In this document: in pieces, positions 17,644 to 25,399 of the stretch
Layout of the letters: each line of letters starts with the position of its first letter
How positions within the stretch are numbered: the first letter of the stretch is position 1
Assembly: GCA_020852815.1 (NCBI GenBank)
Contig: JADZAN010000036.1
Location: forward strand, 1 to 64,000
DNA: 64,000 bases
Origin: Gemmatimonadaceae bacterium
GTDB lineage: Bacteria > Gemmatimonadota > Gemmatimonadetes > Gemmatimonadales > Gemmatimonadaceae
Reading direction: 5' to 3'
The notes under the pieces: model-generated
Databases searched by the model: none
Told to the model about the DNA's origin: nothing
What the model saw: the letters and a program-made list of their open reading frames with translations, nothing else
Made by a program: the position numbers and the translations under genes

Positions 17644-18378
17644 TCACCGCAGGGCGCGCCGGCGCAGCCACTCGTCGGCCTCGTGCACGGAGTAGCGCGC
17701 GAAGCTCCGCGGCGTTCGGGAGCAATGCGGCTCGGCGGCCAGCGCGTAGCGCAGCGGCCACTCGGCGGCTTTCGAGATCCCGATGCGCGGCGTGACGACG
17801 ATCGACTCGTCAGGCAGCGGCGTGGCTCCCTCGCCGGTCGCGGGGCGCAGGATGCGCAGTGGGCCGCGATCGAGGCATGTGCCGTCGTGGGCGCCGCCGA
17901 TGCCTAACGCCTGACACAGCTTGCCCGGGCCGTTGGCGAGCGATGATGCGTGCCCGGTGCCGCGTCGTTGCTCCATGGCGGCGAGCCCGGCGAGCGGGAC
18001 CAGGGCACGGACGAGGACGGCGCTTCCATGTCCCGCCTCGCGCGTGACGGCGTTGACGCACCAGTGCATCCCGTAGATGCGATACACGTAGGCGGTGCCC
18101 GGCGGGCCGTGCAGGTGCCGGTTGCGCGCGGTTTGTCCAACGGCGGCGTGGCAGGCCGGGTCGTGCGGCCCCAGGTAGGCCTCGACCTCGACGATGCGTC
18201 CCCGCGCCGTGACGCCGTCGTGCCGGCACTCGAGAATGGCGCCAAGCAGTTGGCGCGCGACGAGCGCCGTGTCGCGGTCGTAGAAGTGTCGAGGGAGCGG
18301 CACCAACGGCGAACGCCGCACCCGGTGCATCCCGGACGCGGCGTTCGCTTGCTGCGGGGCGTTAGCCCGGACGGTCAC
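17644..18378 (-). CDS. Alkyladenine/3-methyladenine DNA glycosylase (MPG/AAG family)
   Basis: Up to 244 aa. Family features: LLGAILEC, the catalytic Glu in IVEVEAYLGPHDPA, TARN and the YVYRIYGMHWCVN segment that inserts into DNA, then LANGPGKLCQALGI. It removes alkylated purines in base-excision repair. The first possible start is a GTG at 18376-18378 overlapping the TGA stop of the NYN gene (GTGA), which suggests coupled translation. An ATG 16 codons later is an alternative and would remove a non-conserved leader. Confidence 0.88.
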   Translation of the reverse strand: MTVRANAPQQANAASGMHRVRRSPLVPLPRHFYDRDTALVARQLLGAILECRHDGVTARGRIVEVEAYLGPHDPACHAAVGQTARNRHLHGPPGTAYVYRIYGMHWCVNAVTREAGHGSAVLVRALVPLAGLAAMEQRRGTGHASSLANGPGKLCQALGIGGAHDGTCLDRGPLRILRPATGEGATPLPDESIVVTPRIGISKAAEWPLRYALAAEPHCSRTPRSFARYSVHEADEWLRRRALR

Positions 18379-20366
18379 TTCGCGGCGGCCTTCCTGGCCT
18401 TCCCGCCTCGGGCACCGCGCGCCGCCTTGGCCGCGGGCGCGCTCGCGGCCCTCGGCGCCCTGGCCTCCTTTGCCGCCTTGGCGGGGCGCTTGGCGGCTTC
18501 CTTCGCCTTGGCCTTCGGCGTACGCGCGCCGCGCCCCTTGGGCGCATCGGCCTGGGGCAAGGTCGCCGGCTCGTCGACCAGATCCGCCACCGGCGCCGGA
18601 GCGGCCGCCGGTGCCACATCCTCGACGACTCCAACGAGGAGCAGCTCCGGCGGGGGGCCCGCCGGGGTGCGCCCACGCCCGCCGCGAGCCGGCGCACCAC
18701 GCGGGACCATGCCGCGCGGCGCCGGTGCAGCTGGCGGAGCCGCGGCGGCCGCCGCCGCGGCGTGCGCCGCTGCGGCGCGATTCAACTGCTCGCTCACGGG
18801 GGCGACCGCCGCCGGGAGCGAGACCTCGAAGTCGTTCCCGCGACGCCGCAGGTCGATGACTTCCTGATCGTGCGCGTCCTTGAGGATGCGCTCGAACATG
18901 CGCTCGCTCAGGCTCTCGCTGTCCCGGCCGAGGAGCTCGAACGACTTGGCGCGCACGGCACGCGCCGGCACCGCCTGGTCGCCCGAGACGAGCGCCGTCG
19001 CCGCGCGCTTCACGAGGTCGAAGGCCTCCGAACGCGTGAGGCGCTCGCCGGCACGCCCGATCTCGTCGCCGCCTGACACCTGCGGCTCGCTGCGCGCTTC
19101 GCCGCGGGTCTCGCCGCGGGCTTCGCCGCGAGCGTCACTGCGGGGCTCGGAGCGCTGGTCGCCGCGCCCGTCATGACGACGGTCGCGACGCGATTCGTGC
19201 CGCCCTTCGTGCCGTGACTCCTGCCGCGCCTCGGGGCGCGACTCCTGCCGCGCCTCGGAGGCAGTCTCCGGCGTGCTCTCGTCGGCCGATTCCACGGGAG
19301 CGGCTGGAGCGGCAGGGCCGTCACCCACGAGCGCGACTGCGCGCTCGCCGCGTTCACTGCGTTCACCACGGTCGCTGCGCTCACCACGATCGTCGCGATC
19401 GCGTCCGCGCCCGCGTCCACCGCGACGCCCGCGACGCGCGCCGCGGTCCTCACGCCCTTCGCGGGCGTCACGCGCACTCGCGCCTTCCTCATCCGGGGCG
19501 GCGCGGCGCTCGCCCTGCGATGCAGCTGCCGGCGCCGTGTCGGCGGGGCCGACTTCGAGCTGGCCGTTCTCGAGCTTGGTGATTGTGACGAGCCCCTTCT
19601 CGGAGGCATCGGAGACGAACTTGGAGAACTTCGAGTAACCGTAGTTCTTCTCGTCGAACGTTGCGTCGATGTCCTGCATGACCTGCTTGAGGCGATCGGA
19701 GCGCATCACGTCGCCGTTCTTCTTCATGCGCCCGATGGCCTCGACCACCAGCTCCCACGGGTCCCACTTGTGCACGTCCTCCTCGCTGGCCTTCACCAGG
19801 CCGGCAAGGGCGTTGTAGCTGTAGTACTCGTCGCAGTTCATGACGAGCAGGTCGCTCGACGACTCGCGAATGCCGACGCCGATGACGTACTTGCCGTACT
19901 CCTTGAGCTTGGTCACCAGCGAGGCAAAGTCGGAGTCGCCGGAGAGGAGGATGTACGTCCCGATTTCCGGGCGCGTGAAGACGAGTTCCATCGCATCGAC
20001 CGCGAGGCGGATGTCGGTGGCGTTCTTCTTCGACGAGCCGTACGCCGGGGCCATGATCATGTCGATCGAGGACTCGGCGAGGGGGACGATATACTGCGGA
20101 TAGCGGCGCCAGTCGGCGTAGGCGCGCTGGACGGCGACCTTTCCCTTGATGATGTCCGAGGAGAGGAGCGAGCGAAGCTCGCTGGCCAGGTCGGAGCGGA
20201 TCCCCATCGTGACGTTGTCGAAGTCGATGAGCAACGCGGCGTTAGGCGCGTGCTGGATGGGGGCGCCGTACGTGGCCGCAGCTCCCTGCGGCAGCGCCTG
20301 CGGGCCCCGGTGCAACGGGGCGATCGGCGCGCGCGGAGCGGCGTGCCGTGGGGTACGAGCGATCAT
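18375..20366 (-). CDS. NYN-domain nuclease with LOTUS-like domain, Arg/Gly-rich disordered region and Lys/Ala tail
   Basis: 663 aa. Residues 42-190 are a NYN (PIN-like, LabA/DUF88) domain with the acidic metal-binding set: ALLIDFDN (D48, D50), NATDIRLAVDAM (D118) and LSGDSDF (D144, D146). Residues about 203-275 read as an OST-HTH/LOTUS winged helix (WELVVEAIGRMKKNGDV, then YSKFSKFVSDAS). Residues about 276-440 are disordered, rich in RGG, RGE, RxES and HE(G/S)R repeats. A second helical module lies at about 443-535 (LTRSEAFDLVKRAATALV and SERMFERILKDA). The end is Ala/Pro/Lys-rich, like AlgP tails. Likely an RNA-directed nuclease or RNA-binding scaffold; this is inferred from domains. It is coupled to the downstream glycosylase. 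Confidence 0.82.
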   Translation of the reverse strand: MIARTPRHAAPRAPIAPLHRGPQALPQGAAATYGAPIQHAPNAALLIDFDNVTMGIRSDLASELRSLLSSDIIKGKVAVQRAYADWRRYPQYIVPLAESSIDMIMAPAYGSSKKNATDIRLAVDAMELVFTRPEIGTYILLSGDSDFASLVTKLKEYGKYVIGVGIRESSSDLLVMNCDEYYSYNALAGLVKASEEDVHKWDPWELVVEAIGRMKKNGDVMRSDRLKQVMQDIDATFDEKNYGYSKFSKFVSDASEKGLVTITKLENGQLEVGPADTAPAAASQGERRAAPDEEGASARDAREGREDRGARRGRRGGRGRGRDRDDRGERSDRGERSERGERAVALVGDGPAAPAAPVESADESTPETASEARQESRPEARQESRHEGRHESRRDRRHDGRGDQRSEPRSDARGEARGETRGEARSEPQVSGGDEIGRAGERLTRSEAFDLVKRAATALVSGDQAVPARAVRAKSFELLGRDSESLSERMFERILKDAHDQEVIDLRRRGNDFEVSLPAAVAPVSEQLNRAAAAHAAAAAAAAPPAAPAPRGMVPRGAPARGGRGRTPAGPPPELLLVGVVEDVAPAAAPAPVADLVDEPATLPQADAPKGRGARTPKAKAKEAAKRPAKAAKEARAPRAASAPAAKAARGARGGKARKAAAK

Positions 20367-20744: not shown

Positions 20745-21164
20745 CTACACGCCCAACGCCTTCACGATCACGCGCTTGGGGCGTTGGCCGTCCCACTCGC
20801 CGTAGAAGACGCGCTGCCACGGGCCCAGGTCCAGCCGCCCGGCGGTGACCGGGACAATCACCTCATGCCCAACCGTGAGCGACCGAAGGTGCGCGGCGGC
20901 GTTGTCCTCCCCGGTATCGTTGTGGCGATACGCCTCGGGGCTCCAGGGGGCGATGCGCTCCTCGAGCCAGCGCAGGATGTCGTGCCAGAGCCCGGATTCG
21001 TGGTCGTTCACGAAGACGGACGCCGAGATGTGCATCGCCGACACCAGGACAAATCCCTCCCGGATCGCGGCGGCGGCTCGGCATGCCTCCACCTGGTCGG
21101 TGATGTCGATGATCTCCTGGCGTTTCTTCGTGTTGAAGGTGAGGTAGTTGGTGTGGGTTTGCAT
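20745..21164 (-). CDS. yjbQ: YjbQ family protein (UPF0047, secondary thiamine-phosphate synthase enzyme type)
   Basis: 139 aa, the usual family size. Conserved signatures: the N-terminal strand region with EIIDITDQV, AMHISASVFVNDHE, EAYRHNDTGEDNAAAHLRSLTVGHEV, and the C-terminal LGPWQRVFYGEWDGQRPKR. The His/Asp/Glu set is the conserved core of this trimeric family; a weak thiamine-phosphate synthase activity has been reported for members, but the physiological role is not settled. The ATG at 21164 is immediately preceded by a GGGAGACGGG-type repeat reading as pyrimidines on this strand, so there is no Shine-Dalgarno. Confidence 0.88.
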   Translation of the reverse strand: MQTHTNYLTFNTKKRQEIIDITDQVEACRAAAAIREGFVLVSAMHISASVFVNDHESGLWHDILRWLEERIAPWSPEAYRHNDTGEDNAAAHLRSLTVGHEVIVPVTAGRLDLGPWQRVFYGEWDGQRPKRVIVKALGV

Positions 21165-21187
21165 GGGACGGGAGACGGGAGACGGGA
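21165..21187. repeat. GGGACGGGAGACGGG intergenic repeat (member 1)
   Basis: Three units of GGGAGACGGG type stand directly upstream of the yjbQ start. The same unit occurs at 23968-23982, 43543-43573, 49120-49140 and 53725-53755, each time just before a start codon. Four G-runs make it a G-quadruplex candidate on the plus strand. Confidence 0.65.
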
Positions 21188-21230: not shown

Positions 21231-22493
21231 GTGAAATCGCCCGGATTCCGCACACGCCTTTTCGCCATCCTCTCGGTCTTTGCCCTGGTGCCGGCGCTCG
21301 CGCTGACGCTGGTGTGGGGGGTGGTGGCGACTCGCACGCTCCCGTTGGTCTCGGGGAGCGCGGCGTGGGAGCGACTGGCGGAGTCGGGGCGAGCGGCGGT
21401 GGGGGCCGTCAGGCGCGCGCCGCTCTCGCCCGCGCAGCGCCAGGCGCTGCGCGCACACGAACTCGAACTCGAGGAGTCGGTGACCCAGGCTCGCCGCTTT
21501 CGCTTCCTGGCCACGCGCCTTGTGCCGGTGGTCGTCGTCAGCGCGCTCATCACGCTGGCGGTGCTCTGGGTGGCGGCGTCGCGCGTGGCCGGGCACCTGT
21601 CGCGGCAGATGAGTCGCCCGCTCGACGAGCTGGTGGGGTGGACGGGCCTCATCGAGCGCGGCGCGCCACTCCCCGATGGGGACGCCGCACGCGGGGCGCC
21701 CGAGTTCGGGATGCTGCGCGATCGCATGCGCTCCATGGCGAGCGAACTGGCGCTGGGGCGCGATCGCGCGGTGGAGGCCGAGCGACTGCGCGCCTATCGC
21801 GAAACGGCGCAGCGCGTGGCGCACGAGATCAAGAACCCGCTCACTCCCATCCAGTTCGCCGTCGCCCGCCTGCGGCGCGACGCCAGCGAGTCACAGCGCG
21901 ACGCGATCGAGGTCCTGGAGACGGAAACGCGCCGGCTCGACATGCTGGCGCGCTCCTTTTCGCAGTTTGGCCGGCTGCCATCGGGGCCCGCCGCCGAGGT
22001 CGACCTGGCCGAACTCGCGCGATATACGGCGCAGGCGTCGGTTCCACCGGGGCTCACGGTGTCGGTGGAGTGTGAAGACGGACTCCCGCTGGTGATGGGT
22101 CACCACGATGCGCTGCAGCGCGCGCTGAGCAACGTCCTCCTCAATGCGGTGGATGCCTGCCATGGCCGCGAGATGCCGGGCACGATTCGCGTGCGCGTGG
22201 AACGGTCGGCGCCGCTCAACGGTCGCGAGGCGCTTCGACTTGCGGTGACCGATAGCGGCAAGGGGATCGACCCGACGCTTCTGGCGTCGATCTGGGACCC
22301 CTACGTCACGCACAAGGCGGGAGGAACGGGGCTGGGGCTCGCCATCGCGCGGCAGACGATTCTCGCCCATCATGGGTCGGTGCACGCGGAGAGCACTCCC
22401 GGCGTGGGGACGACGATCGCCTTCGTGCTCCCGGTCACGCCACCACTCGCCAGCGTCGCGTCCCATTCACCTGCACCACCCGAGGTAGCCTGA
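21231..22493 (+). CDS. Sensor histidine kinase, NtrB/NtrY-like, membrane-bound
   Basis: 420 aa. Two transmembrane helices (about 11-33 and 95-116) frame a roughly 60-residue periplasmic segment rich in Arg, Glu and Ala. A HAMP-like linker follows, then HisKA with ETAQRVAHEIKNPLTPIQ (His198), as in kinases paired with NtrC-type regulators. N-box (LSNVLLNAVDAC), G1 (DSGKGID) and G2 (GGTGLGLAI) are intact. The start is GTG. It is the first gene of an operon: its TGA overlaps the next ATG by one base (TGATG). The NtrC-type regulator at 23990 is the likely phosphorylation partner. Confidence 0.9.
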   Translation: MKSPGFRTRLFAILSVFALVPALALTLVWGVVATRTLPLVSGSAAWERLAESGRAAVGAVRRAPLSPAQRQALRAHELELEESVTQARRFRFLATRLVPVVVVSALITLAVLWVAASRVAGHLSRQMSRPLDELVGWTGLIERGAPLPDGDAARGAPEFGMLRDRMRSMASELALGRDRAVEAERLRAYRETAQRVAHEIKNPLTPIQFAVARLRRDASESQRDAIEVLETETRRLDMLARSFSQFGRLPSGPAAEVDLAELARYTAQASVPPGLTVSVECEDGLPLVMGHHDALQRALSNVLLNAVDACHGREMPGTIRVRVERSAPLNGREALRLAVTDSGKGIDPTLLASIWDPYVTHKAGGTGLGLAIARQTILAHHGSVHAESTPGVGTTIAFVLPVTPPLASVASHSPAPPEVA

Positions 22494-22801
22494 TGGATCC
22501 CGGAATCCTCGTCCCGCTCGGGGCGTTCATCATGATCACGACGATCGTCACGACGGCTATCAAGTCGCGCGAGCGAATGCGGATGATGGACCGCGAGGCG
22601 CTGATGCCGTCGCACGGCGACACGTCGCAGCGCCTGGACCGCATCGAGCAGGCGATCGAGGCGATGGCGGTGGAAGTCGAGCGCATCTCGGAGGGGCAGC
22701 GCTTCGTGACCAAGCTCCTGTCGGAGCGGGCGAAGGAGCCGGCCAGCCTTGGCGCCGGCGCCGCGAGCGGCGTTGCGGCTGGCGAGCCGCGCCGTCCGTA
22801 G
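22493..22801 (+). CDS. Small membrane coiled-coil protein, paralogue 1 of 3
   Basis: 102 aa. One N-terminal transmembrane helix (ILVPLGAFIMITTIVTTAI), a short basic linker, then a helical module starting QRLDRIEQAIEAMAVEVERI and continuing SEGQRF, V/T-K-L. A flexible Ala/Gly tail ends it. The module recurs in the next two genes. The start overlaps the kinase stop (TGATG), so translation is coupled to the kinase. Orientation is probably N-out with the coiled coil in the cytoplasm, by the positive-inside rule; this is an inference. Confidence 0.75.
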   Translation: MDPGILVPLGAFIMITTIVTTAIKSRERMRMMDREALMPSHGDTSQRLDRIEQAIEAMAVEVERISEGQRFVTKLLSERAKEPASLGAGAASGVAAGEPRRP

Positions 22802-22813
22802 GGAGGCGAGCGC

Positions 22814-23107
22814 ATGCTGATGACGACGGGCGCCGATGTCGCCATGGCCGCCGTGATCCTGGGCACGATCAGCGGGACGATCATCACGGTCGTGAAGACG
22901 ATCGCCAATCGCGCCAACGCCCGCGACCAGCTGCGCGCCGGAGCGAATCCGGAAAGCGAGCTGCGGCTGCAACGTCTCGAGCAGGCCATCGACGCGATCG
23001 CCGTCGAAATGGAACGGATGTCGGAATCGCAGCGCTTCACGGCCAAGGTGCTGGCGGAGCGGCTCCCCGGCGCGGGCAAGTCGCTCCCGCCCAACCAGTC
23101 CAGCTGA
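22814..23107 (+). CDS. Small membrane coiled-coil protein, paralogue 2 of 3
   Basis: 97 aa. Same plan as its upstream neighbour: an N-terminal hydrophobic helix (VAMAAVILGTISGTIITVV), a basic stretch, then the module LRLQRLEQAIDAIAVEMERM with SESQRF and AKVLAERL. A good Shine-Dalgarno (GGGAGG) lies 8 nt before the ATG at 22814. It lies 12 nt after paralogue 1, so it belongs to the same operon. Sequence drift among the three copies indicates old duplications under selection for the module. Confidence 0.75.
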   Translation: MLMTTGADVAMAAVILGTISGTIITVVKTIANRANARDQLRAGANPESELRLQRLEQAIDAIAVEMERMSESQRFTAKVLAERLPGAGKSLPPNQSS

Positions 23108-23119
23108 AGGGACACGCCC

Positions 23120-23899
23120 ATGTCACACCCGACGATCTACTCCTCATCGAGCCTTCCCGTCTCCGGCGCCGCGCACGGCGGCGAGCTGCAAGGCGACGTT
23201 GGCGGCGTGGTGCAGGATGCGGTGCGGGAAGCGGTGCGCGATGCGGTCAACGACGCGCGCGCCGCGGCACAGGGGGCACCGGCCCCGGCGGCGCCCGTCG
23301 TGGCGTCACCGCAGGCGTCACAGGCGATGATCGACGCGATCACGGCACAGATGACGGCCGAGCGCGTGGCGATCGACAAGCTCACGCAACAACTCGTCCC
23401 CGGGCTTTCGGACGCCAAGGAGAACGCGATCACCGAGCAGCTGCAAGCGGCGCAACAGCGCCTGTCGTCGCTGCAGGTGCAACTCGACATGGCGCGCGGC
23501 GGCCCTCCGGCCACGATCGCGGGAACCACCGCGCCACCGCCGCCGCCCGACGTGGAGGTGATTCCGCGCGAAGCGGTCGCGATGACGGCGATGTTCTTCA
23601 CGACGGTGGCAGTAGTCGCCATCGGAGTTCCGCTGGCGCGCGCCTTTGCCCGCTGGCTCGACCGTCGCGGAGCGAGGCCATCGCCAGCCATCCCCGCCGA
23701 CCTCGCCCAACGACTCGACCGGCTGGAACAGGGCGTGGATGCGATTGCCATCGAGGTGGAGCGCGTGTCCGAGGGGCAGCGCTTCACCAACAAGCTGATG
23801 AGCGAGATGCGGGCCCTCCCCGCCCCTAACGCGATGGAGCAGTGGCCGCAGGGCGCACAGAAGGAAGCCATTCCCGTCGACCGCCGCGCCGGCGGCTGA
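23120..23899 (+). CDS. Larger membrane protein with the same coiled-coil module, paralogue 3 of 3
   Basis: 259 aa. An N-terminal region with Ala/Asp repeats (VQDAVREAVRDAVNDARAAA) and Pro-rich linkers is followed by a coiled coil (about 75-120) and a Pro tract. A transmembrane helix lies near 160-180 (AMFFTTVAVVAIGVPLARA), and the shared module follows at about 200-230 (QRLDRLEQGVDAIAIEVERV with SEGQRF). The single helix precedes the module as in paralogues 1 and 2. AAGGGA lies 8 nt before the ATG. It is the last gene before the regulator; the 90-nt gap between them holds a C-rich tract. Confidence 0.72.
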   Translation: MSHPTIYSSSSLPVSGAAHGGELQGDVGGVVQDAVREAVRDAVNDARAAAQGAPAPAAPVVASPQASQAMIDAITAQMTAERVAIDKLTQQLVPGLSDAKENAITEQLQAAQQRLSSLQVQLDMARGGPPATIAGTTAPPPPPDVEVIPREAVAMTAMFFTTVAVVAIGVPLARAFARWLDRRGARPSPAIPADLAQRLDRLEQGVDAIAIEVERVSEGQRFTNKLMSEMRALPAPNAMEQWPQGAQKEAIPVDRRAGG

Positions 23900-23931
23900 C
23901 GGCGCACTCCGCCGGCCGCAACGCCGCTCCC

Positions 23932-23982
23932 CCCGCCCCCTCCCCCTCCCCCTCCCCCCTCCCCCTCCCCCGTCTCCCGTCC
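23932..23982. repeat. C-rich tract with CCCCCT units and CCCGTCTCCCGT
   Basis: About 40 nt of CCCCCT-type units followed by CGTCTCCCGTCCG run up to 8 nt before the NtrC-type gene's ATG at 23990. The minus strand carries at least five G-runs, giving G-quadruplex potential on the template strand. No Shine-Dalgarno is present. Confidence 0.7.
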
Positions 23983-23989
23983 GCCCCGC

Positions 23990-25399
23990 ATGCCCACCAT
24001 CCTCATCGTCGACGACGAGCCGAACATCCGCCGCATGGTGGGGGCGCTGCTCACGTCGGAGGGATACGAAGTGCGCGAGGCGGCGAGTGGCGAGGCGGGC
24101 GTTGCACTCGCCGCCGAGGCCGAGCCCGACGTCGCACTCGTCGACCTGATGATGCCGGGGACGATGGACGGGATTGCCGTGCTCGGGGCGCTGCGGGACC
24201 GGCACCCCGACCTCCCGGTCGTGATGATGAGCGGAAAGGCAGGGCTGGCCGATGCGGTGCGCGCCACCAAGCTCGGGGCCTTCAACTTCCTCGAGAAGCC
24301 GCTCACGCCGGAGGGCGTGCTGCTCTCGCTCAGCTCGGCGCTGGAGTTGCGGCTGGCGAAGCGGGAGGCGCAGGTGCTGCGCGCCGACCTGGGGCTGGCG
24401 GGGGAGATGATCGGCGGGAGCGCGGCAATGCAGGGGATGCGCGCACTCATCGAGCGCATTGCCCCCACCGATGCCCGCGTCCTCATCTCGGGAGAATCGG
24501 GGACGGGGAAGGAGTTGGTCGCGGCGGCGATCCACGCCGGGAGCCCGCGGCGCGACCGCCCGTTCGTGCGCGTGAACTGCGCCGCCATCCCGCGCGACCT
24601 GGTGGAGAGCGAGATGTTCGGGCATGAGCGCGGCGCCTTTACCGGTGCCACCGAGCGCCGCATCGGACGCTTCGAGCTGGCGCATCGCGGGACGCTCTTC
24701 CTCGACGAGGTGGGCGACCTGGGAAGCGAGGCGCAGGCCAAGCTGCTGCGCGCCATCGAGGCGCGGGAGATCGAACGCGTCGGCGGCGGCAAGCCGATCC
24801 CGGTGGACGTGCGCGTGGTGGCGGCGACCAACAAGGACCTGCCGCGCGCCGTGCGCGATGGGGTCTTTCGCGAGGATCTCTTCTTCCGCCTCAACGTGAT
24901 TCCGGTGGCGCTGGCGCCGCTGCGCGAGCGGCCGGATGACATCCCGCTCCTCGTGCGGCACTTCGCCACGCTCACGCGACTGCGCACCGGCCATCGCCTC
25001 CCGGAGTGGGACGACGACGCGTTGCAGCTGTTTACGCGCTATCGCTGGCCCGGCAACGTGCGCGAACTGGGCAACATCGTCGAGCGCCTCATCATCTTGC
25101 ACGCGGGGCAACCGATCCACGTGGACGACGTGCGGCGCGTGATCGCGGTGGAGGATGCCCCGCTGGCCGCGCCGGAGCGCGCCACGCTCCCCGACCCGTC
25201 GGGGCTGGATCGCTCGCTCGGCGAACAGCTCGACGACTACGAGCGCCTCCTCATCGCGCGCGCGCTCGCCGCCTCCAGCGGCAACATCTCCGAGGCGGCG
25301 CGCCGCCTGCAGACCGATCGCCCCAACCTTTATCGCCGCATGAAGCGGCTGGACGTGCGGGCGGTGGGAGCGGAAGGCAATCTGACACACCTCCCCTGA
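23990..25399 (+). CDS. NtrC-family sigma-54-dependent response regulator
   Basis: 469 aa. An N-terminal receiver (phospho-acceptor Asp52 in LVDLMMPG, Lys in FLEKPL) is followed by an AAA+ domain with Walker A GESGTGKE, the sigma-54 contact loop GAFTGA, Walker B TLFLDEVGDL, and the Arg finger region FREDLFFRLNV. A C-terminal Fis-type helix-turn-helix (NISEAARRLQTDRPNLYRRM) ends the protein. All key residues are present, so it should activate RpoN-dependent promoters. Its kinase partner is probably the gene at 21231. Target genes could include the three paralogues or the downstream barrel gene, but no clear sigma-54 site was found there. Confidence 0.93.
   Translation: MPTILIVDDEPNIRRMVGALLTSEGYEVREAASGEAGVALAAEAEPDVALVDLMMPGTMDGIAVLGALRDRHPDLPVVMMSGKAGLADAVRATKLGAFNFLEKPLTPEGVLLSLSSALELRLAKREAQVLRADLGLAGEMIGGSAAMQGMRALIERIAPTDARVLISGESGTGKELVAAAIHAGSPRRDRPFVRVNCAAIPRDLVESEMFGHERGAFTGATERRIGRFELAHRGTLFLDEVGDLGSEAQAKLLRAIEAREIERVGGGKPIPVDVRVVAATNKDLPRAVRDGVFREDLFFRLNVIPVALAPLRERPDDIPLLVRHFATLTRLRTGHRLPEWDDDALQLFTRYRWPGNVRELGNIVERLIILHAGQPIHVDDVRRVIAVEDAPLAAPERATLPDPSGLDRSLGEQLDDYERLLIARALAASSGNISEAARRLQTDRPNLYRRMKRLDVRAVGAEGNLTHLP

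Follow-up and report, generated by a model that had tools for sequence, protein, structure and literature searches.

A predicted NYN nuclease with two LOTUS domains and its class-wide link to a methylpurine-DNA glycosylase gene in Gemmatimonadota

The gene located on the minus strand at 18375..20366 of the window (the whole stretch of 64,000 nucleotides that was analysed, with a GC content of 69%) encodes a protein composed of an NYN domain, a first LOTUS domain (LOTUS1), a flexible, disordered linker in which a basic RG core is conserved, a second LOTUS domain (LOTUS2) and a disordered tail bearing a short motif. A search of the 5.38 Mb genome returned one NYN match and one OST-HTH match, both in this protein. 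The gene is near-universal in the class and is a core gene of Gemmatimonadota; nearly all the relatives retrieved from the genome collection carry this label. On balance, the protein is probably a housekeeping, metal-dependent NYN endoribonuclease, in which the RNA would be held by the two LOTUS modules and whose link with the adjacent gene for the glycosylase MPG would represent an old operon. The features of the locus are the following.

17644..18378, minus strand: MPG/AAG (methylpurine-DNA glycosylase) gene, PF02245 at E 2.3e-63; overlaps the nuclease stop codon (GTGA, 18375-18378)
18375..20366, minus strand: NYN-LOTUS-linker-LOTUS-tail protein, 663 aa, ATG start
18378..18788, minus strand: low-complexity Ala/Lys/Arg/Pro tail, residues 527-663, from composition and low pLDDT
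18618..18719, minus strand: short tail motif PRGM..RG...RGRG....PPELLxxGVV, residues 550-583, from the orthologue pattern
18795..19049, minus strand: second, diverged OST-HTH/LOTUS domain (LOTUS2), residues 440-524, Ghxph glycine lost, from hhalign, pLDDT and deep orthologues
19050..19538, minus strand: disordered linker, residues 277-439, RG/RE-rich, from pLDDT (~35-47) and composition
19086..19392, minus strand: tandem-repeat part of the linker (19086-19149, 19189-19258 and 19341-19392), DNA periods of 12, 18 and 24 bp, from TRF
19395..19445, minus strand: conserved basic core RRGRRGGRGRGRDR within the linker, with R312, R314, R315, G316, G319, R320 and R322 invariant or >90%
19539..19775, minus strand: first OST-HTH/LOTUS domain (LOTUS1), residues 198-276, Ghxph motif GYSKF, from Pfam, pLDDT (~96) and a TDRD7 match
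19818..20240, minus strand: NYN (LK-nuclease) domain, residues 43-183, Pfam E 2.2e-26
20745-21170, minus strand: UPF0047 (YjbQ-like) gene, upstream of the nuclease on the same strand, in a minority of relatives only
21231-25399, plus strand: histidine kinase and sigma-54 response regulator, divergent, upstream, conserved across Gemmatimonadaceae

The NYN domain and the two LOTUS domains

The acidic site of the NYN domain, described as intact in the original prediction, was recovered in full. Indeed, the five residues named (D48, D50, D118, D144 and D146), together with D124, are invariant in 63 full-length orthologues, and the same five are also invariant in 46 core sequences from several families. 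The NYN domain of human MARF1, a proven Mn/Mg-dependent endoribonuclease, possesses an acidic cluster of the same type, formed by D358, D426, D427 and D452, and the NYN domain of YacP/Rae1 has been superposed on it (PMC6294520). Among solved structures, VPA0982 (PDB 2qip) was the only credible sequence match, over NYN residues 110-181 (E 7.8e-4). For the NYN domain, a structure search with the AlphaFold model returned a partial match of the fold to 2qip and no high-confidence match beyond it. The NYN part is of low confidence in both models produced (full protein and NYN-LOTUS1), and the geometry of the active site is therefore deduced from the sequence.

The winged helix predicted to follow the NYN domain is an OST-HTH domain. 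Within residues 200-280, Pfam OST-HTH exceeds its curated cut-off (residues 215-269, E 1.2e-5), and the AlphaFold model fits the LOTUS structures of TDRD7 and NE0665. The comparison with the TDRD7 LOTUS domain 2lh9 gives a Z score of 8.5 over 75 residues at 2.8 A, and the Foldseek matches include the LOTUS structures of TDRD7, NE0665 and TDRD5; since generic winged helices give similar Z scores, membership of the LOTUS family rests on sequence. The Ghxph motif, GYSKF in the protein of the window, is found in LOTUS1 of 53 of the 64 close relatives.

Over the 46 core sequences, the NYN-LOTUS1 core shows a mean column identity of 81%, which seems more than catalysis by itself would need. This could be accounted for by a core held by a fixed partner, the ribosome for instance, and restricted to the cleavage of a few RNAs by analogy with Rae1. 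A cleavage factor with such narrow targets, held by a hypothetical partner, is judged improbable.

The second helical module is real as well (residues 440-524) and turns out, from profile comparison, AlphaFold modeling and deep orthologues, to be a second, diverged LOTUS domain. Taken alone, LOTUS2 has no OST-HTH match in Pfam in this lineage. Its HMM finds LOTUS1 in three relatives (E < 1e-3), and hhalign aligns the LOTUS2 and LOTUS1 alignments over 76 columns with a score of 35.2 (P 2.4e-6), 30 column-shuffled control alignments scoring at most 15.8. Both modules are modeled with a pLDDT of ~96 and an identical order of structural elements. In deep relatives, two Pfam OST-HTH stretches are detected per protein, with whole-protein E values down to 1e-13, and each module's HMM finds the other module too. 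The Ghxph motif is present in LOTUS2 of 0 of the 64 relatives within the order, versus 18 of the 19 deep relatives, a set whose architecture counts are conditional because its genomes were chosen by a match to the LOTUS2 profile (the NYN and MPG counts are unconditional). This absence is a derived loss, and the second copy of OST-HTH is optional in the family. Having lost the Ghxph glycine in this order, LOTUS2 may not bind RNA.

Linker and tail

A linker was found in all 64 relatives measured, with a length of 47-240 aa (48-140 aa in the deep relatives). The disordered region is thus present in all close relatives and its origin as a one-off insertion was rejected. In the protein of the window, the linker (~165 residues) contains 22% Arg, 14% Gly and 24% Asp/Glu, for a net charge of about zero, and its 12 RG dipeptides exceed the 5.2 expected by shuffling (P 0.0008). 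The description of this tract as a series of RGG, RGE and RxES repeats stands for its richness in RG, RGE and RxES but not for an RGG box, which associates multiple RGG repeats with aromatic residues: a single RGG and no F, Y or W are present. The repeats are also lineage-specific. A same-genus orthologue with a core identity of 98% carries RGES and RVEP/RVES repeats, different from those of the window, and its assembly break falls exactly in the repeat region. The linkers of relatives are Ala/Pro/Arg/Glu-rich and that of the window is extreme in R and RG; RG richness reaches its extreme in this genus, Ala/Pro mostly taking its place elsewhere. The long RG/RE tract represents a lineage-specific repeat expansion. 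The basic core pattern RRGRRGxRGRxR is conserved in the linker of the 63 orthologues, and the conserved pieces of the disordered regions are limited to this RRGRRGxRGR core and to the tail motif RG…PPxLLxxG.

The nuclease had initially been proposed to form condensates driven by RGG repeats. In such a scaffold, the RG-rich linker and the two LOTUS domains would cause the protein to phase-separate as an RNase body, comparable to bacterial RNP bodies or to animal germ granules. The universality of a long disordered linker among relatives, its excess of RG dipeptides and the presence of two modules of RNA-binding type are compatible with this view, as is the short RNase E/G of the genome (574-aa frame), devoid of a long disordered C-terminal scaffold. 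The single RGG, the absence of aromatic residues, the neutral charge and repeats which are lineage-specific and variable even within the genus nevertheless leave the proposal weak and unsupported, and its probability is considered slim.

The C-terminal tail, noted as rich in Lys, Ala and Pro, contains 36% Ala, 8% Lys and 10% Arg. A pattern of RG-rich residues followed by PPxLLxxG is found in 65 of 94 orthologue tails, compared to 6% of shuffled tails. In Gemmatimonadales, tails of this Ala/Lys/Arg/Pro type occur in place of a helix-hairpin-helix (HhH)-like segment, YxGVGxKTAExL, which is present in the tail of 16 of the 19 deep orthologues (in this conditional set; loci L089-L106) and absent from the window's own order; the matches of this segment to PF14520, with a best E of 1e-4, are all below the curated cut-off. 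The fact that a basic tail has taken the place of HhH points to a general role in nucleic-acid binding.

The operon with the glycosylase gene

The predicted coupling of the two genes is exact, the TGA stop codon of the nuclease (18377-18375) and the GTG start codon of the glycosylase (18378-18376) overlapping by 4 bp. Similar 4-bp overlaps of the NTGA type between both genes were found at 20 loci. The survey of neighbors in related genomes, suggested along with the original prediction, detected NYN in 146 and MPG in 124 of 150 Gemmatimonadota genomes. Both genes coexist in 122 genomes, and MPG is located directly downstream, on the same strand, in 114 of these. No clear counter-example to this adjacency was found among the 122 genomes, the eight exceptions corresponding to contig breaks or masked sequence. 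In four of them (G038, G040, G086 and G090), LOTUS2 adjoins MPG and a contig break separates it from NYN; in G124, the NYN region is a run of N and both LOTUS domains adjoin MPG; in G043, G053 and G146, the two genes are on separate contigs. The NYN found in six genomes outside the class (G001-G011) looks like a different type, of which L113 was read as one example.

MPG is missing from several near-complete genomes (G128, G073 and G004), its absence in G079 corresponding to a contig end. Two of the near-complete genomes without MPG were read, and both retain the nuclease at an unchanged locus, next to the divergent histidine kinase. Conservation of the neighbors was established by targeted searches, as the clustering of flanking ORFs by BLAST is confounded by shadow ORFs at 69% GC; no kinase and sigma-54 regulator were detected adjoining the nuclease gene in deep families. 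On the plus strand, three adjacent ORFs at 22493-23899 contain a related segment (RLEQAIDAIAVEMERMSESQRF and variants) that looks like a local duplication.

The operon is a class-wide and presumably old arrangement, possibly related to shared regulation or to nucleic-acid quality control, and this pairing is not described in the literature searched. The coupling to the glycosylase, from which a damage response was initially hinted, proves far stronger than foreseen, being class-wide, but the loss of MPG without loss of the nuclease argues against an obligate damage-response pathway.

The HhH-like segment of deep orthologues, of a kind that typically binds DNA, combined with a DNA-repair partner gene, implies that the substrate could be DNA. 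The protein would then be a structure-specific nuclease of alkylation repair, its NYN domain (PIN/FEN superfamily) cutting DNA intermediates after MPG under the guidance of winged-helix, HhH and H1-like basic tails. The class-wide operon and the position of the K/A tail of Gemmatimonadales, at the site of HhH, fit this scheme. The structural resemblance of LOTUS2 to DNA-binding winged helices (ORC, linker histone) fits it too but stems from a common fold, while the known substrates of NYN and LOTUS are RNA. Furthermore, the nuclease persists where MPG is lost, and would not be needed for AP sites in a genome encoding two Nfo-type AP endonucleases. A repair nuclease acting on DNA is, on these grounds, unlikely. 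The role of a substitute AP endonuclease was rejected, two Nfo being present; exonuclease III (TIGR00633) has no match in the whole genome.

According to a passage of PMC12247748 citing Ding 2020, binding of G4 RNA was reported for LOTUS domains of animals, plants and bacteria. The nuclease and MPG might conceivably constitute one quality-control unit, in which LOTUS and tail would recognise alkylated or G-rich/G4 nucleic acids (RNA, DNA/RNA hybrids), NYN would destroy them and MPG would repair the DNA. The likelihood of this is low; if true, an entire bacterial class would have its alkylation repair tied to RNA surveillance.

Proposed function and known systems

For the favored housekeeping endoribonuclease, the LOTUS domains (LOTUS1 canonical, LOTUS2 diverged) and the basic patches would grip structured or G-rich RNA, and the NYN domain would cleave the RNA held in this way. 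The linker may fix the reach between the two LOTUS grips and the tail motif may dock a partner, the MPG linkage being presumably an old operon instead of an obligate pathway. The genome also encodes RNase E/G (G000:C1:135524-136819, L118), RNase Y and the RNA of RNase P, so the nuclease would be accessory, decay having other initiators as well. A protein-only RNase P was rejected, RNase P being of the RNA type in this genome. A gene of anti-phage defence was rejected as well, with an E of 0.026 at best for the PADLOC NYN defence model and a conserved core synteny that is not island-like.

LOTUS research centres almost wholly on animal germ granules, and no functional study of a bacterial LOTUS member beyond the G4-RNA binding assay was found in the literature searched. 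MARF1/Limkain b1 resembles the nuclease in combining LOTUS domains with an NYN domain (an endoribonuclease in MARF1) that carries an acidic cluster; the present protein is bacterial, with two LOTUS domains instead of eight tandem copies, a disordered linker between them and no RRM in the Pfam scan. VPA0982 (LabA-like) is similar by its NYN sequence and partial fold match, but is a short stand-alone protein without LOTUS. YacP/Rae1 of Bacillus subtilis, a presumably comparable NYN-fold RNase, is also devoid of LOTUS and linker.

Gemmatimonadota is a phylum of soil bacteria with cultured species, and it offers a near-universal NYN-LOTUS member whose architecture is clear and whose genomic partner is fixed. 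With genomes that have naturally lost MPG and a natural series of linker and tail variants available for comparison, the ancestral role of NYN-LOTUS proteins becomes open to direct tests, as does the reason for their pairing with alkylation repair.

The nuclease can be assigned by its sequence to the bacterial family of LK-nucleases (DUF88/NYN) with single or duplicated OST-HTH described in 2010 (Anantharaman, Zhang and Aravind, PMC2848206). It presents the same N-terminal NYN/DUF88 acidic site, at least one OST-HTH after NYN and Ghxph in LOTUS1. It differs from this family by a disordered RG/A/P/E linker of 47-240 aa splitting the two LOTUS domains, by the divergence of LOTUS2, by a long tail that is either low-complexity or HhH-bearing, and by the class-wide operon with MPG. 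Relative to the family of 2010, the novelty lies in the double LOTUS split by a repeat-driven linker, in the swap between kinds of tail and in the class-wide MPG operon.
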